Shown here piece after piece: positions 4,334 through 24,431 of a DNA stretch of 64,000 nucleotides. The DNA lies in the NCBI RefSeq assembly GCF_015689195.1, contig NZ_CP065044.1, positions 4,092,001-4,156,000 on the forward strand. Direction: 5' to 3'. This DNA comes from Pectobacterium aroidearum. GTDB taxonomy: Bacteria > Pseudomonadota > Gammaproteobacteria > Enterobacterales > Enterobacteriaceae. A program made the position numbers and the translations under genes. Numbering within the stretch: position 1 is the stretch's first letter; each line of letters opens with the position of its first letter. Below the pieces are notes generated by a model. The model saw only the letters and a program-made list of their open reading frames with translations, was not told the origin of the DNA and made no database searches.

Positions 4334-6064
4334 TTACTCCTCGCTTAAGGTCACTACGTCGTACATCACGCTGCCGCCTTTTAATTGCAGTGTGATTGTG
4401 TTGTTGCCGTTTTTCAGCAAGTGGGATGACACAGGGATGCGGGCTACGTGATAACGACCGCTTTGTAGCGCACCGCGATAAATGGTTTTGTCGTTTTCGT
4501 AAGTCAGCGTTTCCAGCGTCTTGCCGTTTACCGCTACCGCCAGCTGTGGCATGGTCGGTTCACTCATGCCGCTATTGCTGGCTGCCGCCAATGCGATATT
4601 CAGGAAATAGTTTTTTTTCTCAGGTTGCAGGGCAAAACGGATATCCCATTTTCCCGGTTTGGTCTGCGCGTAATACCAGTCGCGTTGATAGTCGCTACGG
4701 CCAATATCGAACGTCAGATTGGCCGGCACCTCATGTTGCCAGCGGGTGTTGCGTGCCTCGTCGCCAAAGCGGAATTCACTCGCCTGCCGATTTGCCTGTC
4801 CAATCGCCCAGATAACGGGTTCGGCTTTAGGAAGAGCAATCACCGGCAGGGCTTGTTTATCACCAGAAACAGACAGCGTTTGTTCCGCCAATATTCCCGG
4901 CTGCGTACCGCTATTGGCGTAGACCGCAAGGTGGTAATTGCCCGGACGGACATGGGAAATCGCAAAATTCCCCTGTGTGTCTATCGTTGCCTGATACGAA
5001 TAACCGCGGGTTTGTACATCAAACGGTTCATCCAATGATGATGAAAGCACCACCGTCACCGGCTGCTGGCTGGCAACGCGTCCGCTAACCTGTGTGCGAT
5101 CGCGCACATAGCGGGAATCATCCACCCATTGGTACGGCCAACTGACAGCTTCCGTCAGCGCCTGACGCCGGGCATCTGCCAGCATCCGCTCGGTATCGCC
5201 CTGATTGATATACAGCAGCCACGGGCCGTAGAATTTTTTCCAGCCCGGAGGCGCTACCATATCTGGCGTACCGAAGTGTGAACCCGTCATGTAGTTCAAA
5301 ATGATCGCATCCTGATGCACCAGTAAATCCTGCTTGAGCGCATCACCGGAGAAATACTCCCGATTACCGTGAATCAACCACGCCCCGACGCCATTACCAA
5401 AAACACCCCAAAAAGGCGCAGCACGCATATAGCCAGCAAAATCATATTTGGAATAGATACTGCCATCCGGTAGCCGCCAGGTTTCATCTTGTACCTTCGG
5501 CGAGGCTTCAAGCTGGCTGTAGAGCAGCGGTTTACCCTGACGATCGCCGTTATAGAGATGGTCTAACCGGGCAGGATCGAAGCGGTATACGTTACGTAAT
5601 TCACTGACTTTAACGTCCTGACTGCCGCGATTCTCCGCCACTACATAGCTGTAAAGTCCACTAACGCCGCGACGCATAATCAGGTGATATTCAAGCCGCA
5701 ACAGCCCGTCCCGCTCGTCGATATAGGCGACATGCGCCATCTCACGATCGTTGCGCAGCACCTCTACCCGCTCGGGGACAAAATCTTTGACGCCTTTAGC
5801 ATGAACATCGTTGACATAATAATCGAGGTAAGCGCTACGAGTTTTGCTCGGATCGCGCGCCGCACCGGACAAATTCGTGACGATATTTTTGCCTCCCGTC
5901 ACCATACGCACCGCGCTGCCATCCTCGCCAAATGCGACGCTGAGTAAGCCGTTATCCAGCACGGTATTCAAACCAGAAACGGATAACGACACCGCATTAT
6001 CCTGCGCGCTATAGCTATAGGGCGCCAGCATGGCCCCCACCAACAACAAGACAGATCGCTTCAC
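4334..6064 (-). CDS. rhiE: Rhamnogalacturonate lyase, PL4 family, secreted
   Basis: The predicted enzyme cleaves the rhamnogalacturonan I backbone of pectin by beta-elimination and acts outside the cell. The 576-residue product has a signal peptide (MKRSVLLLVGAMLAPYSYS) and the three-part PL4 layout: a large N-terminal catalytic domain, a central fibronectin-like segment near residues 335-400, and a C-terminal carbohydrate-binding-like jelly roll. Overall sequence resembles Dickeya RhiE. The start codon is GTG, supported by AGAGGG at a proper distance. It stands alone at the downstream end of the minus-strand block. In relatives such genes respond to rhamnose and KdgR; no convincing operator was found here. 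Confidence 0.93.
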   Translation of the reverse strand: MKRSVLLLVGAMLAPYSYSAQDNAVSLSVSGLNTVLDNGLLSVAFGEDGSAVRMVTGGKNIVTNLSGAARDPSKTRSAYLDYYVNDVHAKGVKDFVPERVEVLRNDREMAHVAYIDERDGLLRLEYHLIMRRGVSGLYSYVVAENRGSQDVKVSELRNVYRFDPARLDHLYNGDRQGKPLLYSQLEASPKVQDETWRLPDGSIYSKYDFAGYMRAAPFWGVFGNGVGAWLIHGNREYFSGDALKQDLLVHQDAIILNYMTGSHFGTPDMVAPPGWKKFYGPWLLYINQGDTERMLADARRQALTEAVSWPYQWVDDSRYVRDRTQVSGRVASQQPVTVVLSSSLDEPFDVQTRGYSYQATIDTQGNFAISHVRPGNYHLAVYANSGTQPGILAEQTLSVSGDKQALPVIALPKAEPVIWAIGQANRQASEFRFGDEARNTRWQHEVPANLTFDIGRSDYQRDWYYAQTKPGKWDIRFALQPEKKNYFLNIALAAASNSGMSEPTMPQLAVAVNGKTLETLTYENDKTIYRGALQSGRYHVARIPVSSHLLKNGNNTITLQLKGGSVMYDVVTLSEE

Positions 6065-6391: not shown

Positions 6392-8521
6392 TCAGAATGA
6401 CAGTTCGCGAATCAGTACCGCAGACACCACCTTCCAGCCGCGAACCAGCAGGCTTTGCGCCTCGCCGTCCATCACCACCGTGCCGCGCAGCACCTGCGGC
6501 TGAGCACGATAATCGTCCGGCAGACTGAGTAGCACGCGATAAACGGCCTGTTCAGGGTGCAGTTTGCGCTGTGCATCGCTCAGCGTGGCAATATCGCCGC
6601 CGTAAATCGATGCCAGCTCTGGCGCAGCGTTCAGATCGCGGGTGGCCGTGCTGGCGATCTCCACAATGGTGAGCGGCAGCGACAAGCGGCTGACATCCTG
6701 TAAATAAAACGTCCCCTTTGCGCCCGTGTGAAGTCGCTGCCAGTCTTTTTCCGACACGAACGCTTCCACCAACCCGCCGGTCGGCTTGGTGACAACCGCT
6801 AGCCATTCACCCTGCCCCAGCCACTCACCCGTTGCCAACGGCGTTGCCATGTCAGCCACCACGCCGTCTATCGGCGCACGTACCGTCAGTTGTTCTGACT
6901 GACGCTGCAATACCTGTAACTTTTGTAACGCCGCGTCGTGCTCCCGCTTCACTCGCAGGTGGTCACCAGCCGCTTCCTTGTTGAAAACCTGAAAGGAACT
7001 TTGCCAATTCAGCGTAGCGATTTGTCGCTCCAGCTGTTGCCGTTCGTGCACCAGCGCGTCAGACGACAGCGTAAATAGCGTCTGTCCCGCGCGCACAGGC
7101 TGACCCACCTGTACTTCAATGCGCTGAACCATCGCAGGCACTGGCATATACAGGCTGCTTTGCTGTTCCGCCCGCAGCAGAGCTGGCGCATACACACCGC
7201 GCTGCCAGGGAATCATCAGCAAGAGCAGAACTACAGCGCTCACGGTCAACGTTGTCGTCATATTACGGTTCATACGGTAATCCTTACGGCGTTTACTCCA
7301 TTCGCGTACTTCATTCACCACTGGCATCACTACGAAGTAGCCGATTTCAATGGCGAAAAGCAGCATCCCCAGCAGCTTGAACGCCATGTGGTAAACCAGA
7401 ATCGCGATACCGGTAAACAGGAAAAAACGGTATATCCACACCGCGAAGGCATACCCCACCAGCGTGCGTTGTAGCCAGCGGGGAAAGTGTTCCGGCGGCG
7501 CATCCCCCAAGCCAAACAGCCATTCCCGCATCTGCCAGCGGCCGATCGCAAAACCCCGATTTTGCAGGTTCGGCACCTGTAACCCATCGGAAAGCAGGAA
7601 ATAGCCATCGAAACGCATCAGCGGGCTGAGGTTAATCGCCAGCGTCATAATCCAGGTAGTCGTTGCCAGCATAAACGCCGCGCTGCGCAGCATACCGTCC
7701 GGCAAGAAGCTCCATGCCAGCGTCGCCCACGCCGCCAGCACCAGTTCGGTCATCATGCCTGCCGCACCAATCGCCATTCGCTGTCGGCGGCGGGTGAGTT
7801 TCCACGACCCAGAGGTATCGGTATACAGCACCGGCATCATCACCAGAAATGCGACACCCATCGTGGCAACCCGCGCACCAAAGCGCTTGCAGGTGTAGGC
7901 GTGGCCGAACTCATGCAGGATCTTGGTAAAACACAGCGTCAGCCCCGCCAGCGCTGCACCTTCCAGCGTGAAGAAATGCAGAAAGGTATGCTTGAACGTT
8001 TCCCACTGGCGTCCGGCAAGAAAGAGCCCCAGCACGGCCACCAGCAGCGTCAGTTTGAGGAAAGTCCGACTGAAAAACGGCTCAACCCACCGTAGCGTCG
8101 CGCCCAGAAAACGATCGGGATGCCATAAGGGAATACGGAAAAACAGATAGTTCTTCAACAGCTTGCGCCAAATGGAAACGCGCGACTGCTCTACCTGACG
8201 AGAAAATTGCGCCAGCGCGTCATCGCCGGAAACGCGCGTCAGGCTGTTAGCCTGCAAGAAACGGTTGAAATACTGCACATCGCTGTCATCGAGCGTTAGC
8301 GCAGAAGTTTGGTTAACCTCGGCCACAATCTGCGCCGCGTTCCCCATCGACCAACGCGATAACATCGCCATTTCTGCCCAACCGATACGGAAATAGAGAC
8401 CACGCAACGGATCTTCCAGCGTCCAACTGGGGGATCCGTCGCGATTAGCCGGCCCGGCGTGCAGGATCAGTTCATCGCGCAGCGGGCTGAGTCCGGCGGC
8501 TGGGGTCGCACCTCCGGCCAT
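6392..8521 (-). CDS. M50 site-2-type metalloprotease fused to HlyD-like adaptor
   Basis: This 709-residue inner-membrane protein joins two functions. Residues 1-110 form a small soluble domain with a faint PqqD/RRE-like look. Residues 150-430 are polytopic and carry an intact M50 zinc site: HEFGH at 203-207 and NLSPLMRFDG at 297-306 with Asp305 as likely third ligand. Residues 440-709 resemble an HlyD adaptor with a biotinyl-lipoyl segment split by a short coiled coil. It is last in the tolC-like, hlyD, GAF-hlyD, M50 gene set and starts 2 bp after the preceding stop. No ABC ATPase is present nearby, so it occupies the inner-membrane position of an export apparatus. Whether it cleaves, transports, or both is unknown. 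Confidence 0.85.
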   Translation of the reverse strand: MAGGATPAAGLSPLRDELILHAGPANRDGSPSWTLEDPLRGLYFRIGWAEMAMLSRWSMGNAAQIVAEVNQTSALTLDDSDVQYFNRFLQANSLTRVSGDDALAQFSRQVEQSRVSIWRKLLKNYLFFRIPLWHPDRFLGATLRWVEPFFSRTFLKLTLLVAVLGLFLAGRQWETFKHTFLHFFTLEGAALAGLTLCFTKILHEFGHAYTCKRFGARVATMGVAFLVMMPVLYTDTSGSWKLTRRRQRMAIGAAGMMTELVLAAWATLAWSFLPDGMLRSAAFMLATTTWIMTLAINLSPLMRFDGYFLLSDGLQVPNLQNRGFAIGRWQMREWLFGLGDAPPEHFPRWLQRTLVGYAFAVWIYRFFLFTGIAILVYHMAFKLLGMLLFAIEIGYFVVMPVVNEVREWSKRRKDYRMNRNMTTTLTVSAVVLLLLMIPWQRGVYAPALLRAEQQSSLYMPVPAMVQRIEVQVGQPVRAGQTLFTLSSDALVHERQQLERQIATLNWQSSFQVFNKEAAGDHLRVKREHDAALQKLQVLQRQSEQLTVRAPIDGVVADMATPLATGEWLGQGEWLAVVTKPTGGLVEAFVSEKDWQRLHTGAKGTFYLQDVSRLSLPLTIVEIASTATRDLNAAPELASIYGGDIATLSDAQRKLHPEQAVYRVLLSLPDDYRAQPQVLRGTVVMDGEAQSLLVRGWKVVSAVLIRELSF

Positions 8522-8523
8522 CG

Positions 8524-9879
8524 TTAAACCCCCAGCCAGACGCGCAGAGAGGCCAGCGGTTTACGCAGCAGGTAGACGAACAATACCGTGCGTTTCCCGT
8601 ACAGCTTAGCCGTCCCCTTCAGGCCCACGCGCAGCTGTGGATCATCCTGCGTAAAGCGAGCCCGCAACCGATAGGCCATCACATTATCCGGCGTTGGCGC
8701 GGCGCGGTAGCCAATCTGCTCAAGCCGCGCGTCCTGTGCCGAATTCGGTGCAACATTGAGGAACAAGCGCACATCCGCGCCGTTTTCCAGCGCAATCGCA
8801 TCCGCTGCGGGCAACTGGATCTCCAGTTCAACATCGTGCGGATCGGCGATCATCATGATGCGTTCTCCCACCGCCACCGAGCGCCCAATCCAGTCGTTGC
8901 TATCATCAAAAATCGCCACGCCGTCGCGCGGGGAAGTAAGCTGCATGCGTTCTTGCTGACGTTGGAGAAAATCCATGTCGCTCTGCGCCTGCTCGCGGCG
9001 GCTTTGCAGCACGGCCAGACTGGCTTTGCTATTGGCATCGAACAGCGCCTGCTGCTGTGCCTGACGATACTGGGCATCAGCCGTAGCGAACGCCTGCCGC
9101 GCGGATTCCAGCCGATTTTCCAGTTCGCGCACGTCCAGCCGCACCAGCGGCTGATTGGCACTGACACTCTGATTAGGACGAACCAGAATATCATCCACCA
9201 CGCCCGCCACAGGCGCACGCACCATTACCGGACGGTGTGCGACGATCTCTGCCGGTGCCAGCACCGACTGGCGAACCGGGATCAATAAGATCAACACCAG
9301 CGCCACGATCCCCGCCAGGATCAAACGACGTTTCTTCGGACTGGTGTTGGTCTGCCGACGACGTTGCTTCAGCAAACTCGACCAGGCGTGCGCGTAGGCG
9401 TCCGCCAGTTTTTCCAACAGCACGATCTCAGCAGGCAGCCACGCGCTGTCCCGCGCTAGTACCAGCACCAGCGGCGCATCACTCTGCGGTAAACGCAGCG
9501 GCAACCAAAGTAAAAACTCCGGCAGATGTTCCTGCCACAAAATTTGGTCATCGGCAGGCAGCTCGCGGCATTGCAGCGTCTGCGTTTGACGCCCTTCTTC
9601 CTGCCACTGGCGGCACAGGCGACTAAATTCGGTACAAAATGGCGCGTTGTGATCGAGCGATGCCAGCCCGGAAGCCGCCTGCAAGCGCTGTTTATCGCAG
9701 TCCCACAGCAGCGCCTGACGATACTTCACTACGTTATGCGTCTCGTTGACGATAAAAAACGCCAGTTCATCCAGCGTTTCACGCGCTCTGGCACGGCTTT
9801 GCAGTTGTAATAGTTCGGCCAGCAGCGCCAGCCGGATATCCTGTTCAGTTTGTGCTGCGGTCGTGTTCCGTTCGGTCAT
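8524..9879 (-). CDS. GAF-like domain fused to HlyD-type periplasmic adaptor
   Basis: The 451-residue protein has a cytoplasmic N-terminal part (about 1-180) resembling a GAF sensor domain, a basic stretch KKRR, one membrane helix at about 185-201, then a periplasmic adaptor with barrel-sandwich halves around a coiled coil (about 240-330). A cytoplasmic sensory domain on an export adaptor suggests that assembly or opening is gated by a ligand or partner; this is inference. The start overlaps the upstream adaptor gene by 4 bp (ATGA) and the stop lies 2 bp before the M50 gene, so the genes are tightly coupled. The GAF call rests on layout and weak similarity. Confidence 0.75.
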   Translation of the reverse strand: MTERNTTAAQTEQDIRLALLAELLQLQSRARARETLDELAFFIVNETHNVVKYRQALLWDCDKQRLQAASGLASLDHNAPFCTEFSRLCRQWQEEGRQTQTLQCRELPADDQILWQEHLPEFLLWLPLRLPQSDAPLVLVLARDSAWLPAEIVLLEKLADAYAHAWSSLLKQRRRQTNTSPKKRRLILAGIVALVLILLIPVRQSVLAPAEIVAHRPVMVRAPVAGVVDDILVRPNQSVSANQPLVRLDVRELENRLESARQAFATADAQYRQAQQQALFDANSKASLAVLQSRREQAQSDMDFLQRQQERMQLTSPRDGVAIFDDSNDWIGRSVAVGERIMMIADPHDVELEIQLPAADAIALENGADVRLFLNVAPNSAQDARLEQIGYRAAPTPDNVMAYRLRARFTQDDPQLRVGLKGTAKLYGKRTVLFVYLLRKPLASLRVWLGV

Positions 9880-10631
9880 GGCGACACGCTGCTTGCATCA
9901 GGCGGCACGATTTGCGCCACGCCGCTCATGCCCGGCAGCAATCCGGCGGTAGACTGGGTAATCCGGCCAAAGACTTTTACCGATTGACTGACCGGATCGA
10001 TCGCTGACGAGAGCCGACTAATTTCCGCCGGATAGCTCAGGCCGGTTTCATCCAATGTAACCTGAAACGCGCTGCCCTGCTTCAGCCACACCAGCCAGCG
10101 CGACGGCACGATCATTTCCAGCTCGAACGCGCTGTCATCATAAATTGCTAACAGCTCTTTGCCTTCCGGCACCGATTCCCAACGCTTCACTTTGGTTTCC
10201 GTTACGCGACCGGAGAACGGGGCTTTGATGGCACAGCGTTGCAACATGGCGCGATTGACGCCACTTTCGGCCTGCGCCATTGACACCGACGATCGCGCCT
10301 GATCGACATCCGACAGGCTGATCGAATTGAGCTTATCCAGCCGATCGGCAATCGCCAGCTTCTTACGCGCGGCATTCTCTGCGGCGTTTGAGTAGTTCAG
10401 CTTTTCGCGCAGCACGGTACAGTCAAACGTCACCAGCGTATCGCCCTGCTTGAAGTGTTCCCCCTCTTTCACCGCAATATCCGTCACTTTCCCGGCAATT
10501 TCGCTGGATAATACGGTATAACGCTGCGCGCTAAGCTGTACGCGAATGTCTCCCGTCGTCGCAGCCTGCCCCCACAGGGGCAGGCTTAACGCACTCACCA
10601 GTAACAGCGGACGCATCATGCCGACAGCCAT
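9876..10631 (-). CDS. Periplasmic adaptor (HlyD/RND type)
   Basis: This 251-residue exported protein has a signal peptide of about 23 residues ending near GQAA and a compact adaptor fold: lipoyl half (VLSSEIAGKVTDIAVKEGEHFKQGD), a short alpha hairpin, second lipoyl half (IKAPFSGRVTETKVKRWESV) and a beta barrel. It is smaller than typical HlyD and lacks an N-terminal membrane anchor. Its start overlaps the TolC-like gene stop as TAATG. It is one of three adaptor-type proteins in this unit, so it may bridge the channel to the membrane-bound adaptors. Confidence 0.82.
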   Translation of the reverse strand: MAVGMMRPLLLVSALSLPLWGQAATTGDIRVQLSAQRYTVLSSEIAGKVTDIAVKEGEHFKQGDTLVTFDCTVLREKLNYSNAAENAARKKLAIADRLDKLNSISLSDVDQARSSVSMAQAESGVNRAMLQRCAIKAPFSGRVTETKVKRWESVPEGKELLAIYDDSAFELEMIVPSRWLVWLKQGSAFQVTLDETGLSYPAEISRLSSAIDPVSQSVKVFGRITQSTAGLLPGMSGVAQIVPPDASSVSP

Positions 10632-12433
10632 TAACGCGAACCTCCGGCCTGTAGGGATTGCAGGTTATCCCACATATCCGTATTTACGACGCGGTATGGT
10701 TTCCCCGCGTTGGCCGATGGCGTTACCGCCACAGGCGTGATGGGTTTCGCGATAGCGGAACCTGTTGCAGAAGCGGTGACGGCAGGAGCCGTCGTGGTGG
10801 CTGGCGTAGCCGGTGTTGACAGGGACAGACGCGGAACCGCAACGCCACCTTTTTCAAGGTTCCCTGTGGTGCGGGCAATCGAGTTGCTCAGCGCCGCCAG
10901 ACTGACATCGTTCACGTTATCCGGCAACACATCCAGCCCAGCAGCCTGATACACCGCGCCCAGCGCGTTCTGCACATCGGCAAAGCTGCGGTCACGCGCT
11001 CGGGTGGTCAGAATGGTTTCGGTGCTGACGCGTACCTGCTCCATTTGCGTTTCGGCACGATGCTGTACGCTGAGCGTGGTCTGGTTGAGGATACCGCGCT
11101 GAATCCGCGCCAGTTCCTGATAGCGACCGAACATCCGCGTACTCTGCTGATACTCCTGCCAAGCAACGTTCACCTGCGTCAGCACCGCCATGCGTAGCGC
11201 CTGACGACGAACTTCCGCCAGATCTTCATTCGCCTGTCCGGCACGTTTAACCGACGACCACGACAGCACGTTCAGCAGGTTGCCGCTGACCTGAACGCCC
11301 GCGTTTGCCCACTGGTGATTGACCAGATAGCTGTTGCTGTCACCGTTGATACCGGCAAACAGCGATACACCCGGCAGCAGGCGCAGCAGCGATTTGCGGG
11401 TTTCCAGTACGCTATTGCGTGCCAGATAGCTCTCTTCACGCACTTCCGGGCGTTTAACCATCGAGAAGTTTTCCAGATCGTCGAGCGAGTAGGCCATCTT
11501 CGGCGCGACCAGACTGCTTTCGCTCGGTACAACGACATCGTATTTACTCGACGGCGGCAGGTTCATCAGCGCGGCCAGACGGGATTTCGCCACCACCAGA
11601 TCGCTGTCAACGATTTCCAACTGGCGTACCATCTCCAGCATGTTTTTCTGGAAACGCAGCGCCTCAACCGGTGCCAGCAGACGCTGTTGCTCAGTCTGAC
11701 GCGCGTATTCCAGCGCCTGACGCGCCTGCGTCAACGCAGTCGTCACTTCTGGCTGCAAACGCTGTGCCGTTGCGGCTTCCCAATAGGCTGTCCGCACCTG
11801 ACGGGTAATATCCGCGACCACACGACGACGACGCTCTTCCGCCGCCAGCGATTTGTTCGCTTGTACTTTGGCGTTGAAATAGCTGATACCAAAATCCAGC
11901 ACGTTCCAGCTCATCGTCAGATCGGCGGTGCGCTGGGTCTGATCCTGACTGGTGGACGCTTCCAGTGATTGCCGACCCGTAGTAACCGACTGGCTGCTGG
12001 AACCGGCGACGTTATCGCGGGTTTGCAGGCCAGCGCGGGCGGTCAGTTTGGGTAACAGCATGTCCAGATTCTGTACGCCCAACAGGTCATCTTCCATCGC
12101 CTGTTCCATCAGTGCGACCCGCTGTTGCAGGTTATATTTCAGCGCACGGGCAATCGCCTCATCCAGCGTGATCGTGCCGCGCACCGGTTCCTGATTGGCG
12201 AACATCTGCGTTCTGTCGCTCAACGCCTGTGCGACCTGCTGTTCGATCGTCACCGGCTCCGGCTTGACGGCACAGCCTGCCAGCCCCAAACAGGCAAGGG
12301 TCACCGCGATCCGTAACGCCCGGGAACCCGCGGTGCGTGGTGTAGCCTCGTGTTGAACGTTCTGATGCTGACTGTCGTGTTGCTGGCTATCCCAGAAATG
12401 CGCTATGTGCTGATTCACCCGGGTTCTCCCCAT
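10631..12433 (-). CDS. TolC-like outer-membrane channel lipoprotein
   Basis: The roughly 600-residue protein belongs to the outer-membrane efflux family. Unusually, about 40 hydrophilic residues precede a lipoprotein signal ending LACLGLAGC, so it is probably lipidated. The two long helical repeats of the TolC fold cover about 85-510. A Ser/Thr/Ala/Pro-rich tail of about 90 residues follows. A GTG at 12418 with GGGGAGA at good spacing is a competing start and would shorten the leader by 5 residues. It is the first gene after the giant protein and probably provides its exit channel. Confidence 0.85.
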   Translation of the reverse strand: MGRTRVNQHIAHFWDSQQHDSQHQNVQHEATPRTAGSRALRIAVTLACLGLAGCAVKPEPVTIEQQVAQALSDRTQMFANQEPVRGTITLDEAIARALKYNLQQRVALMEQAMEDDLLGVQNLDMLLPKLTARAGLQTRDNVAGSSSQSVTTGRQSLEASTSQDQTQRTADLTMSWNVLDFGISYFNAKVQANKSLAAEERRRRVVADITRQVRTAYWEAATAQRLQPEVTTALTQARQALEYARQTEQQRLLAPVEALRFQKNMLEMVRQLEIVDSDLVVAKSRLAALMNLPPSSKYDVVVPSESSLVAPKMAYSLDDLENFSMVKRPEVREESYLARNSVLETRKSLLRLLPGVSLFAGINGDSNSYLVNHQWANAGVQVSGNLLNVLSWSSVKRAGQANEDLAEVRRQALRMAVLTQVNVAWQEYQQSTRMFGRYQELARIQRGILNQTTLSVQHRAETQMEQVRVSTETILTTRARDRSFADVQNALGAVYQAAGLDVLPDNVNDVSLAALSNSIARTTGNLEKGGVAVPRLSLSTPATPATTTAPAVTASATGSAIAKPITPVAVTPSANAGKPYRVVNTDMWDNLQSLQAGGSR

Positions 12434-12460
12434 CTTCTATTTGTCTGTTCCCTTCATCTG

Positions 12461-12487
12461 GCAGGCGGTAAGTTGGTTACCGCCTGC
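12461..12487 (-). other. Hairpin between the giant gene and its export genes
   Basis: GCAGGCGGTAA and TTACCGCCTGC form a perfect 11-bp stem with loop GTTGG. No T-run follows on the minus strand. It may allow partial read-through or protect upstream mRNA, keeping export genes below the substrate gene; that is inference. Confidence 0.6.
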
Positions 12488-12563
12488 AAGCGCCTGGGTT
12501 AGTGGTTAAGTAATAAAATCTCGTCTCAGTATTCGATCTGCGCTTTACCAGATTTGCGCTTGG

Positions 12564-15500
12564 CTACGCACGCAGGCTGCTCAGTTCACTGAGCGCCGCC
12601 AGCAGCGCATCTTGTTCCGGCTGATGCTGACGCAGCTGTTCGGTAAAGGCGGTTTTCCCCGCAGGCGCTAACCGTTCGACATCCCGGCTTTCAGCGGGCT
12701 GTATCGTGGGGTTGGCTGGCCCTTGCATCGCACCACGGTCAGTCGCCATCTCGGTGCCAGCACCCTGTCCGGTTTGCAGCGTAATCGGTACGATCCGGCT
12801 GGTGCCATCTGCGGCCTGCGCTTTCAACGCCAGTTGAATCTGATTAACCTGCACGGCACTGGCATCGGTAATGCGCACCACGCCGCTGCGGGCATCAAAC
12901 TGCACCCACGCAGGCAGAGGACGACCGTTTGCCAGTTGCAGCGTCAGCGTGGCATTGCCTTCACGCACGCTGAACATACGCTGCGGCAGGCTAAAGGCGA
13001 GCGCGCCGGAGGCATCCGGCTGTAACGCGCCCTGCACGCTGCTGAATGCCGATTCCAGCGCCGTTGTCTGACCGCGCACGCTCAGGAATAGGTTGGAATC
13101 CGTCGGAGAAACGGCGGCGCTGTCACGCACGGTGGTACTGGCACGCGAAGAGAAGTTGACCTGATCCAGCGTCGGCATGAGCTGTGACATCACCGGATCG
13201 AGTACCCAAGGCGCATCCGACTGCCGTGTCGAACCCGCATCACGCTGCCGTGCAGGTTCAGCGACAATGTTGGTTGGTAGCGCTTGCGCCTCTGGGCGAG
13301 ACAGATCGGCAACAATCGCGCCCAGCGGCTGTTCACGCTCTCTTTCATCCGCATCGGTGGGCAGGCTCACGCCCTGCTGTACCAAAATCACCGGTGCCGC
13401 TGTGGCGGTGTTGTCAGGATTGGCCGGCTCCGTCGGCGTACCGGGATCAACCGGCGTCGACGCGGCGTTGACCGTCAGCGCCACATTCAGCGCCGTCGCG
13501 TTGCCCGCGCTGTCCGTAGCGGTAATCGTCAGGTTGAACATTCCTGCCGTTGACGGAGTACCGCTGAGAGTACGGCTTGCGCTATCAAAACGCACACCTT
13601 CAGGCAATTGCTTCTCATCAACAGTGAACGTCAGCGCATCGTTTTCAGGATCGGTGAACAGTGAATCCGGTAAGGTATAAGTCCAACTGGTGCCAACCTG
13701 TGCGGCAGGCGGGACAAAGGCATCGCTATTTCCCACAGGTGCATGATTCACACTATCGGAAATCGTCACCGTCACCTCATAAGGCGTGGAATCCTGTTCT
13801 CCGTCATTCAGCACCACGCGGAGTACCACTGAACTCTCACTAACCACGACTGTGCTACGCCAACCAATCTGGCGCACAAGAGCAGTCGCTTCATCACGAG
13901 AAAGACTGGCGGTAAACGTCACAGAAGCACGGCCATCAGCCTGACTCAACGTTGCCACAGGTTGCCCATCTTTACTGATAACGTTACCCGAGATGGTAAA
14001 ACCGTTGCCGGCAATCATCTCAAAACGATCGCTTGATGAAGGAGATTCACGCTGAAACACAACAGATGCCCCACGGTAATCCCCTGCCCCACCATTTGCG
14101 GCATCTAATTCCGCATCGCTTAAGGTCAATGTCGGTGCTGCCGCTACCGCAGAGCCCCCATTGGTATAAGAAGCACTGAGTGGAGTCTGACGCATAACCA
14201 CAACCGAATCGGCAAGGATGATGATCTCACCTCGTGGTGATACCGCTATTCTCCGGGCATCCGCCAGATTAGTCTGAGCATCAATGCGTCCCAACGTATC
14301 TGCCGAATAATAAGCCAAGGAACCATCGGATAAGGCGACATACAGCGTTTTATCATCCGCTGACAGTGAAATGTCTTCCACCGTCGCGGTGCCATTGATT
14401 GTGCCCAAATGCGTTAACGACCCTGCAGCGTTGAGGCGAAAAGCATCTATTTTCAATGGATGGTTGCTTACCGTGGTTTCCCCTGTCCATCCGTTAAAGG
14501 AGCTGGTACGGCTATTCGCGATAAAGATCGTTTGTCCGTCGGCACTGACAGATAAATGTTGCACATAGTCCAGATTCACGACCTTACCGGTGCTGTCCGT
14601 TTCCCCTGAATGGAGATAGGTCAGCGGAGTCAACTGACCCGTTTCACTATTACGTTGATAAACAATGAGTGATGAACCGTTGCTGGGGTTGGTGACCACA
14701 TAAACTTTATCCCCCTGCGTGATGACTTCCGCCGGTGCCCACAGATAAGGCGGTGCTGACATATCACTATCAAGATCTTGAAGATGGGTAAGCGTGCCAG
14801 TCGTGGTATCTCGTCCATAAACAACAATCGTCAGTTGAACCCTCAGATAAAGATTTTTACCATCATCCGACAATGTAATTTGTTCAGCATCCCAGACCTT
14901 TATCTGATCGCTTTGCTCTGTCAGATTACCTTCGCTATCGAGAGAAAAAGTAACAATAGTGCTTTCACTGCCATTTTTTTGCAGGGCGTATAAATTTGCA
15001 CCATCAGACGTCATTTGGAGTTGGATGACACCGCTGGCAATAGTACTCGTACGCGTGTGTGTCAGGGTGCCATCGGCATTGCGGGTAAATAGCGCAATGT
15101 GACCTTGCTGGTCAGCAATATATACGCGGCTACCGTCCGCAGACACCGCACTGTTCGTTGAACCCGTCAGCCCAAATGCCGACAATTCCAGAGTCTGCAA
15201 CCGATCCAAATCGCCAAATGACAGAACAGGATCGGTGTTGATGGCTGGAACATCATTAATCTGCGTAATGTCTATGATTAAGGCCGTAACCTGAGACTCC
15301 AGATAACGATCGGACAACGTCACCGTCACCGCAACCTGTGCGGCAGGCGTATGGCTGTCGCTGGAGTAGGTAATCTGACGTAGCGCGTTCTGCACATCTT
15401 CTGTGGTGGGGATGGTGCCAGCATTCGCGTTAAAGCGGATCGTCAACACACCGTCTTTATTACTGACCTGACCGATAGTAACGCCGTCTTTTTGCAGCGT

Positions 15501-18446
15501 ATCACCGGATAGCGTCAGGCCGTTACCCTCGTTAAAACCAAGCTTATCCAGTGCTGTTTTACCGTCACCCAGCGTAATCTTCAGCGTTGCACCGTCATAA
15601 TTACTCTTACCGCCGTTGAGTTTGTCCATCTGCGCATCGGACACCGTTGCATCAGGTACCAGCACGATAGGCGCGGCACGTTCGGTATACGTCGGAGTGG
15701 TAGCCGGCACGGTGATAATCGGCGCGGTATTGGTTTCTGACGCAGGCACCAGCGTTAAGGTAATTGCCTGCTCTAACGTGGTTTCCGGTGCGCTGCCACT
15801 ATAGTTATTCTCCTTGATCATCAAGGTAACATGGCGTTCCCCGCTAGCGTCGCTACCCAGATAGTTGTAGCCGATGCTGTCAATGATCTCAGCAGTGCCA
15901 CTACCGTCTTTCCCGACGTACAGGAGAACCGTTGCTTTACCGTCTTTCACCTCAACAGAATATTGCAACCCACTGGCGGTGCGCGGTGTACCGGTAGATT
16001 TTTCGAGCACGATCGTACTGCCATCGACGCTGATCGTCTCATTGGGCCCTGACACATCAAACGTCAGCACCACCTGCCAGATAGTTTGCCCGCTCTCAAT
16101 GGTGTCGATATGCGTATCTTTAAACAGCTTAACGAACTCGCCGTTGCCCGGAATCTGTGGATTCAGCACCGTCGTGGTCAGCACAGCCGGATCGTTTACG
16201 CCGATCAGACTAACCGTCACGTCCATCGTCGCAACATTATTGTCACCGTCATTAATGCTGAAGACGAATGTCGGCGCCGAGCCCGCATGTTCAGGATCCT
16301 GACTGGTGTTCTGGTAGGTAATCTGGCGCAGCACATTTTGCGCATCGACTTTTGTCACCGCAGCCGTAAAGGTCACCGTCAATACACCATCAACCTGCGT
16401 AAAGGTAGCGATCGTGGCACCATCTTTGACGATGTTGTTACCATCCAGCGCTAAACCGTTATCGGTCTTAAAGCCGAAGGTATCTTCCGGTAGGCCACCC
16501 TCTTGTCGGCCTACCGTGATGCTGGCACCGTTATAGTTACCCGCACCGTTATTTAACGCATCTAACTGTGGATCGGACAGACGGCCTGACGGCAGCAGCA
16601 CCGTTGCGTCAGTGTCTTCGGTATAGGAGGCACCTGCTGTCCCGACATTCAACACATGAACTTTATCGCCACCAATCAGGTACAGCTGCTTACCGTCTGC
16701 ACTCAGTTCTACATTTTGTAGATCCGAGAAGGAAATATTGAGCGGGCTATCCCAGCCGCCGCTAATCGTATGTTTCAGCGTCAGACTGCCATCCTCGGCA
16801 CGAGCGAAAACAGAAATATTCTTACCAATCACGAACAGCGCCGTGCCATCGGCAGAGACAACCAGACCGGTTGCCAGCGCTTCACCAGAATCCCCCCCGT
16901 CATTGACAAACGGCACCGTTGCGACCAGCGAGAGTGCCCCATCGGCCCCCACCGTTATCGTATTGAGCGTGTACTGAATGCCATCAGCATTAATCGCATA
17001 CAGGGTTTTGCCATCAGGTGAGAGGGCAAGTGAATTGATGTAGTACGGGTCATCGCCTTCAGCACGAATCTGGGAAACCTGAGTGAGCTTGCCCTCAGCA
17101 TCAATACTGAAACTAGTGACGCCAACGGTATCACCTGAACCCGACACGAACAGGTAACGCCCTTCAGGATCAAGCACGAGACGGCTCGCCCCGATCAGGT
17201 TATCGGTCTGAGAAACCGACGTCAGGGTACCGTCCGTCCCGCGCTTAAACACCAGCACGCTGCGGCTGTCATTATCACTGCCAGACTGGGCAGCGGTGAG
17301 ATAGAGGTAATCGCCTTGAGAAACAATGTGAGAACGCACATCCAGCGAATGGCCACCTAGTGCCGCCTGATCGAGGACACCGGCTTGCGTCAGTTCCCCA
17401 TCGCTGCCAACGCGGAAGAGGGTCACCGCGTTGCCTTCACTGCCTACCACATACAGGTACTGCCCATCGGCAGACAGGGTAACGTCTGATGCCCCCGCCA
17501 ACGCGGCATTGTCCACAATCTTATCAAGCTCTCTCGTTTCATCGTTATACACGGAGCGATAGTTATAGAAGGTCTTCGACAGGGTAAACTTGCCTTCTTC
17601 GTTACGGACAAACACGCTCAGTACCGCTGAACCACTATCCGGCGAACTGACAACGTAGAGCGTTTTTCCGTCAGCAGACAACGCGGTGTCTTTTACCCCT
17701 CTCAGTACATCCACATAATTATTAGAGTCATTGCCCTCAAGATTGTAATCATCCTGAAGGGCGCTAGATTCACCGCCGATCGTCGGGGTTTGTGCAGGGT
17801 CGGAGGCGGACACCACATTAATTTTGCTATCGATGGTGATGGTCGAGTGGATATTCAGATCGGCCGTGTCGCTCCCATCGCTCAGGCTTTTCAGCGTCAC
17901 CGTGACATCCCCGCCGGCCACGGTTTTATCGAGTGGCTTATAGGCAATACCGTCGATCAGCTTCGCGACATCATTAGGTTCAAATGCGCCAGATTCAGAT
18001 GAAGCGACGCTAACGGTGATGGTTGTCGTCCCACCACTAACCTCAACGGTATAGCCGTATTTTCCATCGCCTTCCGTCGTTTTTGCGCCATTAGCGGCTT
18101 CCAGCGTAATTTCCGTATCGTCGATGACGATTGCCTGATTCGCCCCCGTGCGATTGACGGTAATCACCAACTCTTTCAGCGCCTGCCCGCCTTTATCCGC
18201 TGACACGCTAACACCGCTGAACAGATCGATCGGTTCGAAGCTGCTGCTGGTGTCGGTAACGGTGACCGTTGCCTTAACTGGCGTGGCATCAACACCAGGC
18301 GCGGTATCCGTTGCGGCAACATGCGCAGCCACATCCACAGCAGTGGTCACAGCGGCGGCGTCAAACATCATGCGCGGTTCCAATACCCACGCCTGACGCG
18401 GCGTGCGCGTTAAGCCTGAACCAGATTTTGAGCGGGAAAAAGTCAT
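12564..18446 (-). CDS. Giant surface-type protein with N-terminal LEPR motif, beta-propellers and cadherin-like modules
   Basis: The product is about 1960 residues. Near residue 25 is the motif LEPRMMFDAA, of a kind I recall at the N-termini of other giant Gram-negative surface proteins; no classical signal peptide is seen. Then come a beta-rich module, a lactonase-type beta-propeller (repeats such as LSPDGKTLYAI), two cadherin/VCBS-like modules with LRQITY signatures, a second propeller, a third such module, a dystroglycan-type Ig domain, a Pro/Asn linker, a beta-rich domain and a short Leu-rich helical tail. There are no RTX nonapeptides. The start at 18446 is preferred over 18485 because AGGA precedes it at a suitable distance. 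It begins 58 bp after tadG and precedes the TolC-like gene. The likely role is adhesin or surface binding. Confidence 0.82.
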   Translation of the reverse strand: MTFSRSKSGSGLTRTPRQAWVLEPRMMFDAAAVTTAVDVAAHVAATDTAPGVDATPVKATVTVTDTSSSFEPIDLFSGVSVSADKGGQALKELVITVNRTGANQAIVIDDTEITLEAANGAKTTEGDGKYGYTVEVSGGTTTITVSVASSESGAFEPNDVAKLIDGIAYKPLDKTVAGGDVTVTLKSLSDGSDTADLNIHSTITIDSKINVVSASDPAQTPTIGGESSALQDDYNLEGNDSNNYVDVLRGVKDTALSADGKTLYVVSSPDSGSAVLSVFVRNEEGKFTLSKTFYNYRSVYNDETRELDKIVDNAALAGASDVTLSADGQYLYVVGSEGNAVTLFRVGSDGELTQAGVLDQAALGGHSLDVRSHIVSQGDYLYLTAAQSGSDNDSRSVLVFKRGTDGTLTSVSQTDNLIGASRLVLDPEGRYLFVSGSGDTVGVTSFSIDAEGKLTQVSQIRAEGDDPYYINSLALSPDGKTLYAINADGIQYTLNTITVGADGALSLVATVPFVNDGGDSGEALATGLVVSADGTALFVIGKNISVFARAEDGSLTLKHTISGGWDSPLNISFSDLQNVELSADGKQLYLIGGDKVHVLNVGTAGASYTEDTDATVLLPSGRLSDPQLDALNNGAGNYNGASITVGRQEGGLPEDTFGFKTDNGLALDGNNIVKDGATIATFTQVDGVLTVTFTAAVTKVDAQNVLRQITYQNTSQDPEHAGSAPTFVFSINDGDNNVATMDVTVSLIGVNDPAVLTTTVLNPQIPGNGEFVKLFKDTHIDTIESGQTIWQVVLTFDVSGPNETISVDGSTIVLEKSTGTPRTASGLQYSVEVKDGKATVLLYVGKDGSGTAEIIDSIGYNYLGSDASGERHVTLMIKENNYSGSAPETTLEQAITLTLVPASETNTAPIITVPATTPTYTERAAPIVLVPDATVSDAQMDKLNGGKSNYDGATLKITLGDGKTALDKLGFNEGNGLTLSGDTLQKDGVTIGQVSNKDGVLTIRFNANAGTIPTTEDVQNALRQITYSSDSHTPAAQVAVTVTLSDRYLESQVTALIIDITQINDVPAINTDPVLSFGDLDRLQTLELSAFGLTGSTNSAVSADGSRVYIADQQGHIALFTRNADGTLTHTRTSTIASGVIQLQMTSDGANLYALQKNGSESTIVTFSLDSEGNLTEQSDQIKVWDAEQITLSDDGKNLYLRVQLTIVVYGRDTTTGTLTHLQDLDSDMSAPPYLWAPAEVITQGDKVYVVTNPSNGSSLIVYQRNSETGQLTPLTYLHSGETDSTGKVVNLDYVQHLSVSADGQTIFIANSRTSSFNGWTGETTVSNHPLKIDAFRLNAAGSLTHLGTINGTATVEDISLSADDKTLYVALSDGSLAYYSADTLGRIDAQTNLADARRIAVSPRGEIIILADSVVVMRQTPLSASYTNGGSAVAAAPTLTLSDAELDAANGGAGDYRGASVVFQRESPSSSDRFEMIAGNGFTISGNVISKDGQPVATLSQADGRASVTFTASLSRDEATALVRQIGWRSTVVVSESSVVLRVVLNDGEQDSTPYEVTVTISDSVNHAPVGNSDAFVPPAAQVGTSWTYTLPDSLFTDPENDALTFTVDEKQLPEGVRFDSASRTLSGTPSTAGMFNLTITATDSAGNATALNVALTVNAASTPVDPGTPTEPANPDNTATAAPVILVQQGVSLPTDADEREREQPLGAIVADLSRPEAQALPTNIVAEPARQRDAGSTRQSDAPWVLDPVMSQLMPTLDQVNFSSRASTTVRDSAAVSPTDSNLFLSVRGQTTALESAFSSVQGALQPDASGALAFSLPQRMFSVREGNATLTLQLANGRPLPAWVQFDARSGVVRITDASAVQVNQIQLALKAQAADGTSRIVPITLQTGQGAGTEMATDRGAMQGPANPTIQPAESRDVERLAPAGKTAFTEQLRQHQPEQDALLAALSELSSLRA

Positions 18447-18504: not shown

Positions 18505-20136
18505 TCATTCAACCAGCCGAACATAGCCGCCCTCGGTTTCGATCTGGCCGGCGATACGATCCAACCGTTGAATCAATTGATCCTCAACGCCCTCTGCGCC
18601 GAAGCCTGCACCATCGATAAAGCTCATGCGTTTTTCGCCCTCGGTACAGACCAGCAGGCCCGGCGTCGCTTCTCTGTCGAACAGGTTGCGGCCAAAGTCT
18701 TCAGGGTCGCCGGGACGAATACCGACAAAATAAAATTTGATGTTGCGCGCGCGGAAGCTGGAACACAGATCCTGGAAGCGCTGTGCGGCAAAGGAACGGG
18801 CAGGATCCGTTCCGGTCGAGCCACGAAATTCGTTACGATTGAAGTTGTAGCTGTCGGTGTCGAACCAGTTACCGATGGTGTTAGCCATCATGACGATCAC
18901 CTTTTGCCCATCACCATTGCCGTCCAGATTGAAATCCAGCGGTAGCGTCGTATCACCCCAGCCGTCTGAACCTCGCATGTTGGGTGACAGCGCCGCCCCT
19001 GCCCATGACATTGCGATCGCATAGTTGGTGTTAAAGCGTGGGGTAAACTCGGCAATACGCTGATTCAACTTGCTTTCTTCATTAGTCAGCGGCATCAATG
19101 CCGCATTCGGGCACCCTCGATCCGCGACGATAAAGCGGGTGTCTACGGCATCGGAGTTGTTATCCCACGGATAGAGATCGGGGTTAGGGCCACGCCAGGT
19201 AATCGGTGGTGCGCCGGGGCTGCCGTTTTGCGGCAAATCGTGGCGGTAGTACACGCGGAATTGCCCAACGGGCGGCTCGTCCCAGAAGAAGTTTTCTTCT
19301 CGGCCCAGCCCACGGTACATGCACAGCAAATTCGCCCGGCGATCCGGGAAACGACGATCGGCAAGGCTACTGACAACCCCGCTGGCAAACAGTGAACGCA
19401 ACTCCGGTGGGTTTAACGCACTCGGCGTAGACCAGCGACGAATGCGATTCGCGTCTTCCGCGTCATACACGTTCACCGACTGACTGTACGGCACCAGTGA
19501 GAGCCACAGGTTGTCGCGTTTACCGTCCGCGCTGCTTAGCATGCGTTCGACAAATGAGCGGCTAACGATTTTCAGCGAACGGATATCGGCATCACTCATA
19601 TCCCCCGTCACTGGCATAACAAGGGCAATTTCAGTCGGACGGTTGATGACCTCAGAAGTCGAATACACTTCCTGCTTTCTCGCCCCGAGGCTCATCAGGC
19701 TGGGTTTGGTTTCGAAAGCGACAGTGACGGTATAGGTTTTACGCGTCGCGCTGTTACGTCCTTCCGCAACGGATACATCACTCGCCACCAGTTTTTCACT
19801 TAGGGCCTTATTCATCCCCAGATTATTTTTGACGTATTCATACGCCAGTTTATTGATATCTTCCTGACTGTATTCTTCACCATTAATGGTCGCCTGATGC
19901 CCGACAGCCAGCGCAGCGGCATCCGTCGCACGTTTGATTTGCGTCGCATCACCGGTTGCCGTAGAGGTATCGACGATAAAAGCCGCCGTCACCAATAAGG
20001 CCATCGCGCCCAGCACATAAAACCCTGTGCCTGCACCCTTTTCCTGCTGAATAAAAGCAGACAGGTGTTCACGCCAGAACAGAGAGGTTCTGCTATCGTC
20101 TTTTTTTACTCTTCTGTTCTGTAAGGTTTTTTTCAT
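18505..20136 (-). CDS. tadG: TadG-like pilus assembly protein with VWA-like domain
   Basis: This 543-residue protein has a basic N-terminus, one hydrophobic segment (about 40-60) followed by the TadE/G pattern, and a large C-terminal region with a von Willebrand A-like fold. The expected MIDAS motif DxSxS reads MPVTGDMSD, so metal binding is probably lost or altered. It is the last gene of the tad set and is preceded by a 177-bp gap without a clear terminator. Tad pseudopilins TadE/F and TadG are needed for Flp pilus assembly in other species. The giant surface gene follows after 58 bp. Confidence 0.85.
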   Translation of the reverse strand: MKKTLQNRRVKKDDSRTSLFWREHLSAFIQQEKGAGTGFYVLGAMALLVTAAFIVDTSTATGDATQIKRATDAAALAVGHQATINGEEYSQEDINKLAYEYVKNNLGMNKALSEKLVASDVSVAEGRNSATRKTYTVTVAFETKPSLMSLGARKQEVYSTSEVINRPTEIALVMPVTGDMSDADIRSLKIVSRSFVERMLSSADGKRDNLWLSLVPYSQSVNVYDAEDANRIRRWSTPSALNPPELRSLFASGVVSSLADRRFPDRRANLLCMYRGLGREENFFWDEPPVGQFRVYYRHDLPQNGSPGAPPITWRGPNPDLYPWDNNSDAVDTRFIVADRGCPNAALMPLTNEESKLNQRIAEFTPRFNTNYAIAMSWAGAALSPNMRGSDGWGDTTLPLDFNLDGNGDGQKVIVMMANTIGNWFDTDSYNFNRNEFRGSTGTDPARSFAAQRFQDLCSSFRARNIKFYFVGIRPGDPEDFGRNLFDREATPGLLVCTEGEKRMSFIDGAGFGAEGVEDQLIQRLDRIAGQIETEGGYVRLVE

Positions 20137-20313
20137 TCCTTCCTATCCTGTATACCTGGATTCAGCGCGTACTCAACCCGCCCATCAAGCGGGAAAATAA
20201 AAACGACATGGCTCACACGTTATTTGTCTTAATGGTTTCGTTATTTCGGTAACGAGGCTCTCGCTACCGTTTGCGGTCTATTTGCCGCTTCTGTATTTTC
20301 TATAAAACCGTAG

Positions 20314-20964
20314 CTATTGATCTTTTTCTTCCAGACCGGCCTCTTTTCTGAGTACGTCATCCAGTTCAACCACACCGATAGCCACCCGGTTGACCGACGA
20401 GGCGTGCAGCAGTCCCCCCAGCGACAACCCGCCCAACAGGCTCACATCTTTCCCCTGACGACAGATCTCGACCACCATCATGGAGGTGTTCTTGCTGCCT
20501 TCCTTAGGATCCTTTTCTGGTAGTTCAGGGAGATACTCTTCATCCGGCAGCGTTTCACTTTCCGCACACAGCGACTCTGCTGTCCCTTTGCTTAACTGCC
20601 AGTACAGCTCGCCGGTCTGACGCACGTTGCTGATTAACAGTTGATAATTGCCTAACCCTTCCGTTGGCAGCACCGTATCGAGCAGACCTTGCAAGCCTTT
20701 CTCATCCAGCTTCTGCTGCATCGCCAGTATTGACGCGATGGCACCCGCACGCTGTTCCATACGCGTACGCTCCAGCCCGACGGTGTAGATATCCGCACAC
20801 AGCGAACCAATCGCCAACACAATCGGAAACGCCAGCGCGGTTTCTACCGCAGTAGAAGCACAACGAGAAAACCAGAAGCGGCGGAGTCCATTCAGGAAAT
20901 AACCCGTTTTCAACGAACGGCTGGTTTTCAATGAACGACCGGTTTTCAATGAACGATCAGTCAT
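20314..20964 (-). CDS. tadF: TadF-like pseudopilin
   Basis: The 216-residue protein has an N-terminal basic segment, then a TadE-like hydrophobic helix with the processing-type motif STAVETALAFPIVLA (Glu at the usual position), then a soluble domain. The ATG at 20964 is chosen, overlapping tadE by 8 bp; an upstream ATG at 20988 would lie deeper in tadE. The leader carries three near-identical 6-residue repeats (RSLKTG type), encoded by an 18-bp tandem repeat. The pseudopilin is probably matured by TadV. Confidence 0.8.
   Translation of the reverse strand: MTDRSLKTGRSLKTSRSLKTGYFLNGLRRFWFSRCASTAVETALAFPIVLAIGSLCADIYTVGLERTRMEQRAGAIASILAMQQKLDEKGLQGLLDTVLPTEGLGNYQLLISNVRQTGELYWQLSKGTAESLCAESETLPDEEYLPELPEKDPKEGSKNTSMMVVEICRQGKDVSLLGGLSLGGLLHASSVNRVAIGVVELDDVLRKEAGLEEKDQ
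20905..20957 (-). repeat. 18-bp in-frame tandem repeat in tadF leader
   Basis: Three consecutive units of the type GGTTTTCAATGAACGACC start at about 20905, 20923 and 20941. They encode RSLKTG-like hexapeptides in the cytoplasmic leader, and copy number could vary without shifting frame. Confidence 0.75.
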
Positions 20965-21517
20965 TGCGCAGTTCCGTCCCAAACACATGCTTGTACTGAT
21001 AGCGGAAGGTGTCTCCCAGCGTTAACACCTCCGGCAGTGGCGTAATAAACGCCTTTTTAATCTGCACCGTCACGGACCACACGGGGAGCGTTGTCGTCTC
21101 TTCGCCATTGGGGTTGTCCTGACTGCTATTGCCGTTCGTCAGCCCGCCAAGCTGGCTCAAATTGTCGAAGTGCAATACGCTGACGGTTAAATCATCTTCC
21201 TTGAGGTAGCCGTATCCCGCTTCAACCATCCGTGCCTTTAGGCGCGTTCCCATCTGTTCCGCGCTGTCCGACGCCAGATTGTCGAGGCGGAAAGCCTGCA
21301 CCGCTTTATCCAGCGCAGCGCTGCCAGCGGCAATCACCAGCCCGATGCGCGCCAGTTCAAACAGCATCATCACCCCGACCAGCACTACCGGCACCAGAAA
21401 CGCCACTTCCGTCGCGATCACGCCGTGCGTGCTGCGCCAGTGACGTTCATGGCGCGGCACGATTCCTTGCACGGTGCCTTCATCACGCCACGGGCCGAGA
21501 TTACGAAGCCACGCCAT
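20957..21517 (-). CDS. tadE: TadE-like pseudopilin
   Basis: The 186-residue protein has a hydrophobic segment at about 38-62 preceded by HGVIATEVAFLVPVVLV, the TadE pattern with a glutamate five residues after the conserved glycine. This fits a pseudopilin cleaved by TadV. Its start overlaps the tadD stop as TAATG and its end overlaps tadF, implying coupled translation. Confidence 0.85.
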   Translation of the reverse strand: MAWLRNLGPWRDEGTVQGIVPRHERHWRSTHGVIATEVAFLVPVVLVGVMMLFELARIGLVIAAGSAALDKAVQAFRLDNLASDSAEQMGTRLKARMVEAGYGYLKEDDLTVSVLHFDNLSQLGGLTNGNSSQDNPNGEETTTLPVWSVTVQIKKAFITPLPEVLTLGDTFRYQYKHVFGTELRND

Positions 21518-22383: not shown

Positions 22384-22458
22384 CGGTTGTCACCGCCGTG
22401 ATTTCCGGCACATACCGGGAATCGATGTTTTAAAAATCAATGTGTTGTAAATAAAATG

Positions 22459-23418: not shown

Positions 23419-23432
23419 GAATGGCTCTCCCT

Positions 23433-24413: not shown

Positions 24414-24431
24414 CAGCGTCTCCTCAACCCA

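Follow-up and report, generated by a model that had tools for sequence, protein, structure and literature searches.

The stretch of DNA analysed here (the window) comprises 64,000 nucleotides of Pectobacterium aroidearum (contig NZ_CP065044.1, positions 4,092,001 to 4,156,000) and carries on its minus strand a five-gene module encoding a giant protein with an N-terminal LEPR tag, a TolC-like lipoprotein, a small HlyD-type adaptor, a GAF-HlyD fusion and a fusion of an M50 protease with an HlyD adaptor, here called M50-HlyD (Table 1). A first-pass annotation made from the sequence alone had drawn these genes as one unit, and comparison with relatives confirmed the module as real and recurrent. 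We propose, with a probability of roughly 0.6, that it represents a dedicated envelope-spanning exporter for LEPR-tagged giants that operates without an ATP-binding cassette (ABC), resistance-nodulation-division (RND) or major facilitator superfamily (MFS) pump. The proposal rests on the pairing of tag and M50-HlyD in two phyla, in which each of two tag types goes with its own clade of M50-HlyD.

Table 1. Features of the module and its surroundings, in window positions
Feature	Position	Strand	Remark
Giant LEPR-tagged protein, 1960 residues, presumed cargo	12564..18446	-	alternative start 18485
LEPR tag of the giant, residues 18-41, QAWVLEPRMMFDAAAVTTAVDVAA	18324..18395	-	NCBIfam NF012209 match
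Conserved C-terminal motif region of the giant	12564..12700	-	
TolC/OEP-family outer-membrane channel, 600 residues	10631..12433	-	lipobox LACLGLAGC
Small periplasmic HlyD-type adaptor, 251 residues	9876..10631	-	signal-peptide-like N-terminus
GAF domain, one hydrophobic (transmembrane) helix and HlyD adaptor, 451 residues	8524..9879	-	
M50-HlyD, 709 residues: N-terminal beta3-alpha3 domain, polytopic M50 site-2-type protease and HlyD adaptor	6392..8521	-	
Tad/Flp pilus locus	18505..31226	-	complete-looking by eye
Rhamnogalacturonate lyase (PL4 domains)	4334..6064	-	

Following its LEPRMMFDAA tag, the window giant contains lactonase-type beta-propeller repeats, a He_PIG Ig domain and a C-terminal GKTAFTEQL motif, and as the first pass had claimed it is free of RTX repeats (0 GGxGxD), which some of its relatives do carry. 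The module thus holds both HlyD-family membrane fusion proteins and a TolC-family channel, and a GAF fold was recognized in the GAF-HlyD protein. A scan for promoters and terminators gave results no better than shuffled sequence. The C-terminal motif [FLV][STNHADG]xQ[LVFIM] was found in the last 75 residues of 36 of 47 giants (47 C-termini, several from near-identical species), mostly within GKxxFxxQL...LL, compared with a mean of 5 and a maximum of 12 of 47 in 1000 shuffles; its longer form occurs in 27 of 47. This motif may act as a second signal or may serve to retain the giant at the outer membrane.

The same genome contains a second, diverged module (C1:4337333-4352352) with genes for HlyD, GAF-HlyD, M50-HlyD (40% identical to that of the window), a tail-collar protein, a giant of 2551 residues that begins with the tag GFVLESRVLFDGAI, and OEP, in an order that differs from the window and again with no ABC. 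This second copy and the many genera that carry such modules rule out that the pairing is peculiar to a single operon. Gene order varies among related modules, with the giant first or last. An open reading frame (ORF) of at least 300 residues ends directly upstream of M50-HlyD in 75/80 loci, and 60 of those 75 are complete and 430-500 residues long, like GAF-HlyD; the OEP family is present in 60/82 loci.

Two tag types and two clades of M50-HlyD

Tags were read from ORFs of at least 600 residues (or cut by the locus end) with less than 9% Arg. The type A tags of the relatives are variants of ALE[PSQ]RxMFDAA and were found in 28 ORFs, covering the window, its paralogue and 24 of 80 named loci; in most other named loci the start of the giant lies beyond the sequence flank covered. 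The outlier is LEKRLMLDAS (L085). Type B tags share the core ExLEPRxLLSAD, as in the YVFEDLEPRLLLSADLS carried by clade B operons. The NCBIfam model NF012209 (LEPR-XLL) matches 19/20 type A and 8/8 type B tags, the first type B tag scoring 29.2 bits; the window tag scores 18.1 bits as a 37-residue segment (cut-off 17), and for the full 1960-residue giant the model was not among the matches listed at E<=0.01. PF07595, which describes the Planctomycete surface motif RRLxxExLExRxLLA, weakly matches 4/8 type B tags (best E 0.0019), while 1/20 type A tags was listed (E 0.1). The core of the type B tags, ExLEPRxLLSA, shows the same pattern as the Planctomycete motif, with weak agreement from PF07595, and the type A tag (ALEPRxMFDAA) appears as a second flavour of LEPR-type tag. 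A proteomics paper of 2021 (PMC8567305, citing Studholme 2004) describes the Planctomycete motif as a presumed N-terminal signal for export, and the accessible part of that article names no machine for it.

A tree of M50-HlyD splits into clades A and B with support of 100/100. It has 50 rows, six others (L158, L159, L161, L164, L165 and L214) having been removed by the motif filter, and it includes 6 of the 8 loci in which a type B tag was read. Clade A pairs with the type A tag and clade B with the type B tag, even within single genomes. Three named plasmids outside the profile show the order giant, DUF3467, adaptor, 'PqqD family' M50-HlyD and SecA-like protein. The giant of the Pontibrevibacter plasmid is annotated as 'LEPR-XLL domain-containing protein' (31.8 kb gene), that of the Pseudosulfitobacter plasmid begins with ETFEPRVLLSAD, and that of the Methylosinus plasmid with DTLEPRVLLNAD.

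Several other features of these operons were recorded. The tagged gene of the Pseudosulfitobacter plasmid (L214) is very long (38.2 kb, ~12,700 residues), and open frames of tagged giants reach 14,112 residues in G386:C84 and 13,848 residues in G200:C1. A DUF3467 gene of about 93-113 residues lies between the giant and the GAF-HlyD-type adaptor (L214:12753-13094, L215:9726-10046, L230:13848-14129); its product in the clade B plasmid operons is a possible cargo chaperone. Beside clade A modules stands a phage tail-collar-like (MTP) protein (L004:12040-12870, corresponding to C1:4342039-4342869, and eight other loci), a nine-locus ORF cluster that was named by eye.

Co-occurrence of tag and M50-HlyD across genomes

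Profile searches for M50-HlyD and for each tag type were run on a class sample of 369 genomes. M50-HlyD was found in 57 genomes (E<=1e-30), the type A tag in 14 (E<=0.01), 12 of which have M50-HlyD, and the type B tag in 27 (E<=0.01), all 27 of which have it; when the 8 genomes behind the type B profile are left out, the count is 19/19. For either tag type, 38 of 40 tag-bearing genomes contain M50-HlyD (E<=0.01; Fisher 5e-35). Chance matches to the LEPR profiles are ruled out as an explanation, as a tag at E<=0.01 was found in only 2 of the 312 class genomes that lack M50-HlyD.

The same picture emerged from the genomes to which 50 of the 80 named clade A loci belong. The type A tag was detected in 49/50 (worst best-E 0.0011) and in 41/42 of those that did not feed the tag profile, the sole miss among the 50 being a Micavibrio with LEKRLMLDAS next door. 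In at least 25/50, tag and M50-HlyD share a strand and are no more than 16 kb apart; this distance was taken by matching contig coordinates rather than contig names, by which 40/50 were 'near', and the 25 are those that satisfy both conditions and have an M50 coordinate above 20 kb. Among 118 Nitrospirota genomes, M50-HlyD occurs in 15, and the same 15 have the type A tag. Five of them contain a second, lower-scoring M50-HlyD, taken as clade B, and these are 5 of the 6 Nitrospirota genomes with a type B tag; in G533, G667, G656 and G605 the second M50-HlyD, a SecA-like gene and the type B tag lie within ~10 kb.

The pairing of tag and M50-HlyD machine is thus strongly supported, and the first-pass expectation that M50-HlyD fusions travel with LEPR giants held in both the class sample and Nitrospirota. 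Its converse, that such fusions might be common without LEPR proteins, proved true in part, given the tagless and solitary copies described below. Since the same machine travels with giants that share one N-terminal tag, the tag is probably the export signal of the M50-HlyD machine. It has no strong hydrophobic core.

Protease site, pumps and SecA-like ATPases

The window M50-HlyD has an intact zinc site (HExxH and NxxPxxRFDG) placed in transmembrane segments, in keeping with the first-pass annotation. All 56 clade A proteins compared, for which the RFDGY part was required at collection, retain HExxH, which is also present in 19/20 clade B loci, 17 of which fit both patterns, L151 and L164 having HExxH only and L214 giving no match. 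This invariance argues for catalysis by the M50 site. Matches in the PDB include MJ0392 (E 9.5e-5) and, more weakly, RseP (E 0.019). Among curated M50 families, the nearest are those that process leaders of ribosomally synthesized and post-translationally modified peptides (RiPPs), with scores below cut-off; NF041824 (daptide M50) matches residues 69-399 (E 1.9e-42) at 145.8 bits with a cut-off of 300, so that the window protein is not a member.

In a predicted model of the window protein, residues 19-91 form a beta3-alpha3 arrangement. Domains of the PqqD type serve RiPP pathways by binding leader peptides. Several M50-HlyD proteins of clade B carry the NCBI name 'PqqD family', and by Pfam the PqqD match of L230 is over cut-off (24.1 vs 23.4) and that of L151 below. 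The clade A N-terminus aligns with the clade B PqqD-like region along the full-length family profile, and we infer by homology to clade B that this domain may be PqqD-like, resembling a RiPP recognition element (RRE). A PDB search with a clade B PqqD-like N-terminus gave nothing significant, and the structure-comparison rows for the window protein fall mostly on residues 428-692, the HlyD half, and are hence silent on the PqqD and M50 folds.

No ABC transporter is encoded in the window operon. A motif screen found ABC motifs in 11 of the 80 named loci (13 ORFs); of the 10 ORFs scanned by Pfam (all except L056 and the second ORFs of L038 and L061), only that of L023 (Serratia) is exporter-type, and it lies on the opposite strand. 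No ABC gene recurs with the module, in line with the first-pass reading. A census of LapB- and PrtD-type ABCs covering the 14 genomes with a type A tag (HlyB model TIGR01846 not searched) found none over cut-off in 11. Among the 12 that also have M50-HlyD, such matches occur in the window genome (G000) and G468, G263 has a full-length match below cut-off, and nine have neither; a partial match lies in a 767-residue frame of G370. Some ABC match was obtained in all 14 genomes, as in all 14 control genomes, with an MsbA-like protein in every genome. As far as the LapB and PrtD types go, the objection that an ABC is consistently required did not refute the first-pass reading; it may still apply to HlyB, whose model was not searched, and to the MsbA-like ABCs. 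A LapB- or PrtD-type ABC acting in trans as the sole motor was rejected, as 10/12 genomes with tag and machine lack a match over cut-off.

Neither RND nor MFS pumps are found among the window module proteins, and there is no other window ORF of at least 850 residues, so that the earlier statement that no ABC or RND pump lies beside the module was upheld. In relatives no RND or MFS family forms a recurring cluster, though L024 and L032 have RND-like flank ORFs (by eye), and clustering of neighbourhood ORFs revealed no recurring separate inner-membrane translocator. The first pass had let the protease-adaptor itself take the place of the pump. We did not adopt this reading, because no energy source is known to us for a membrane protease and because a gene for a SecA-like ATPase lies next to M50-HlyD in the sister clade.

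This protein of ~650 residues follows directly after M50-HlyD in clade B operons and contains SecA_DEAD, SecA P-loop and preprotein cross-linking domains (SecA_DEAD E 6e-68 to 1e-103 in six scanned proteins); TIGR03714 (secA2) matches five clade B proteins with E 1e-111 to 1e-152, below its cut-off. Full-length SecA was found in all 52 genomes searched, which were hand-picked and assigned to clades by tree, score band, identity or tag. A second SecA occurs in 16/18 clade B genomes, and 14/18 have a SecA_DEAD match at most 300 bp from the M50-HlyD match, a fraction biased by the fact that most of these genomes had already been seen with a ~660-residue ORF after M50-HlyD. A single SecA is present in each of 21/21 clade A genomes (the window genome included) and 13/13 genomes without M50-HlyD. 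The SecA-like gene is the best hint to the energy source, and by extension from clade B it would imply the housekeeping SecA for the window module.

Two loci flank the window module. A rhamnogalacturonate lyase, typical of pectinolytic plant-associated bacteria, follows it in the same orientation. A Tad/Flp pilus locus lies directly upstream of the giant, with TadG 58 bp away, and may be co-transcribed with the module; no Tad genes are among the ORFs read beside the second module (C1:4337333-4352352). The accessible text of an article on the Pectobacterium Flp/Tad cluster (PMC3767616) contains neither 'HlyD' nor 'tadG'.

Proposed export route, alternatives and known systems

In the exporter that we propose, the PqqD/RRE-like domain at the N-terminus of M50-HlyD would recognize the tag on the cytoplasmic side, and a SecA-type ATPase would push the chain in its unfolded state. 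Clade B would use its dedicated short SecA for this, and clade A, the window included, presumably the housekeeping SecA, whether or not SecYEG takes part. Through their HlyD parts, the three adaptors would connect the complex in the inner membrane with the TolC-like channel; the M50 site would probably clip the tag and so release or commit the chain, and the GAF domain of the second adaptor may gate the machine through a small cytoplasmic ligand. What the sequences show is the set of components and their linkage, the pairing of tag and machine in two phyla, the agreement of tag type with machine clade and the SecA-like gene of clade B, whereas export, binding and cleavage of the tag, use of the motor and gating are inferred.

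A number of observations weigh against this proposal. In the class sample, 19/57 M50-HlyD genomes gave no tag at E<=0.01 (several are incomplete), and solitary copies with no GAF-HlyD, OEP or giant adjoining are found in G340 (L237) and G381 (L238), the latter cut by the contig end. Weak type B matches (0.01<E<=0.05) occur in 7 genomes, 5 without and 2 with M50-HlyD. Two genomes carry a tag with no M50-HlyD: G270, which is fragmented (470 contigs) and has a congener, G384, with M50-HlyD, and G391, which is 99% complete and has a LapB-type ABC. The G391 giant (L231, G391:C76:3000-15945, tag LEKRIVFDAAA) is an exception worth study. In Nitrospirota, the sixth type B genome (G648, tag E 0.001) has no M50-HlyD, the type B tag of G677 sits on another contig, and several rows of the type A profile came from Nitrospira relatives. 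All p-values overstate independence because the genomes are related by descent. For the recognition step, Pfam detects PqqD in 0/56 clade A M50-HlyD proteins. As regards the motor, there is no SecA-like gene with the window module and the window genome holds one SecA only; the clade B genomes G494 and G352 lack a second SecA, and G228 and G455 have theirs elsewhere. Finally, the window genome contains two LapB-type and two PrtD-type ABCs over cut-off.

These last ABCs, together with G391 and the presence of some ABC match in every type A tag genome and control, would suit an ordinary type I system whose ABC is encoded elsewhere and shared, M50-HlyD adding only an adaptor and a processing protease. 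We regard this as improbable, given the nine of 12 tag and machine genomes without even a full-length LapB or PrtD match (HlyB model TIGR01846 not searched), the single exporter-type ABC, on the other strand, among 80 named loci (10 of 13 candidate ORFs scanned) and the lack of RTX repeats in the window giant. A better candidate, although still unlikely, is secretion in two steps, in which SecA/SecYEG would carry the chain across the inner membrane with LEPR as an unusual signal, M50 would clip it, and the adaptors and TolC would take it from periplasm to surface. This account overlaps with the exporter that we favour, which leaves SecYEG open; it draws on the SecA-like gene of clade B, on the full-length SecA in all genomes searched and on the fact that M50 proteases normally cut in or near membranes. 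However, the tag has no strong hydrophobic core, a periplasmic chain of at least 2000 residues is hard to envisage, and two of the adaptors are fused, one to a GAF domain and one to a membrane protease.

LapA-type adhesins have an N-terminal retention module, and the LEPR segment could likewise be a plug or anchor, the giant being released when M50-HlyD cuts it under control of the GAF protein. The N-terminal position of the tag, whereas classical type I signals are C-terminal, the C-terminal motif in 36/47 giants and the GAF domain all fit this reading, which we rate as doubtful, a little below the two-step account: the tag pairing is kept in modules that encode a SecA-like motor, a sign of transport, and no separate inner-membrane translocator recurs in the neighbourhoods. 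It is very improbable that co-occurrence reflects only the shared ancestry of a mobile operon with no functional tie between tag and protease. The genes are operonic, some copies are on plasmids and the genomes are not independent, but gene order varies, with the giant at either end, and tag type follows machine clade inside G533, G605, G656 and G667. The odds that we attach to the exporter and to its rivals overlap and are not exclusive.

If the exporter exists, it would be a further tripartite system, with a protease-adaptor and, in one clade, a SecA-like motor at the inner membrane in place of an ABC, RND or MFS protein, and would explain how proteins of 2000 to >10000 residues arrive at the surface without clear Sec signals. 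A known but unexplained N-terminal tag of giant surface proteins is now tied to a concrete machine, in two phyla and with matching flavours, and recognition of LEPR-type signals becomes directly testable by single deletions. More tentatively, and with the odds somewhat against us, we suggest that this is a previously undescribed class of secretion system in diderms, in which a PqqD-like domain reads the LEPR tag, a SecA-type ATPase drives transport through HlyD and TolC, and M50 removes the tag, and that the same family provides the receptor so far lacking for the export motif that was reported from Planctomycetes in 2004. By title and abstract start, no description of the combined machine was found in open-access PubMed Central.

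The module resembles type I systems (HlyB-HlyD-TolC; LapBCE) in that HlyD-type adaptors and a TolC-family channel are encoded with a giant that is very long, Cys-free, repetitive, surface-type and without a clear Sec signal, as type I cargo is. It differs in having no ABC in the operon, nor one over LapB/PrtD cut-offs in 10/12 tag and machine genomes, in its three adaptors, two of them fused (GAF, M50), in its conserved N-terminal tag and in the RTX-free window giant; judged by the ABC, it does not fit type I secretion, and no described system that we found in open-access text matches it. Unlike MacAB-TolC, EmrAB-TolC and RND efflux pumps, the operon has no MacB, EmrB or RND protein and includes a protein cargo gene. 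Accessory Sec systems pair SecA2 with SecY2; clade B likewise has a second SecA-family ATPase beside its presumed cargo and partners, although this protein is shorter (~650 residues), is paired with M50-HlyD/TolC and is absent from clade A. The HExxH...NPxxRFDGY core is shared with the RiPP-processing M50s of the daptide (NF041824) and LiaK/YydH (NF058609) families, which lack the HlyD fusion and the linkage to a TolC-like channel and a giant in place of a small peptide. As in LEPR-XLL (NF012209) and PF07595, the tag is N-terminal in large surface proteins. PEP-CTERM/exosortase, as presented in the accessible part of PMC1569441, offers a parallel in that agreement between phylogenetic profiles links a sorting signal to a family of membrane proteins; the signal, C-terminal there and N-terminal here, and the protein family are different.

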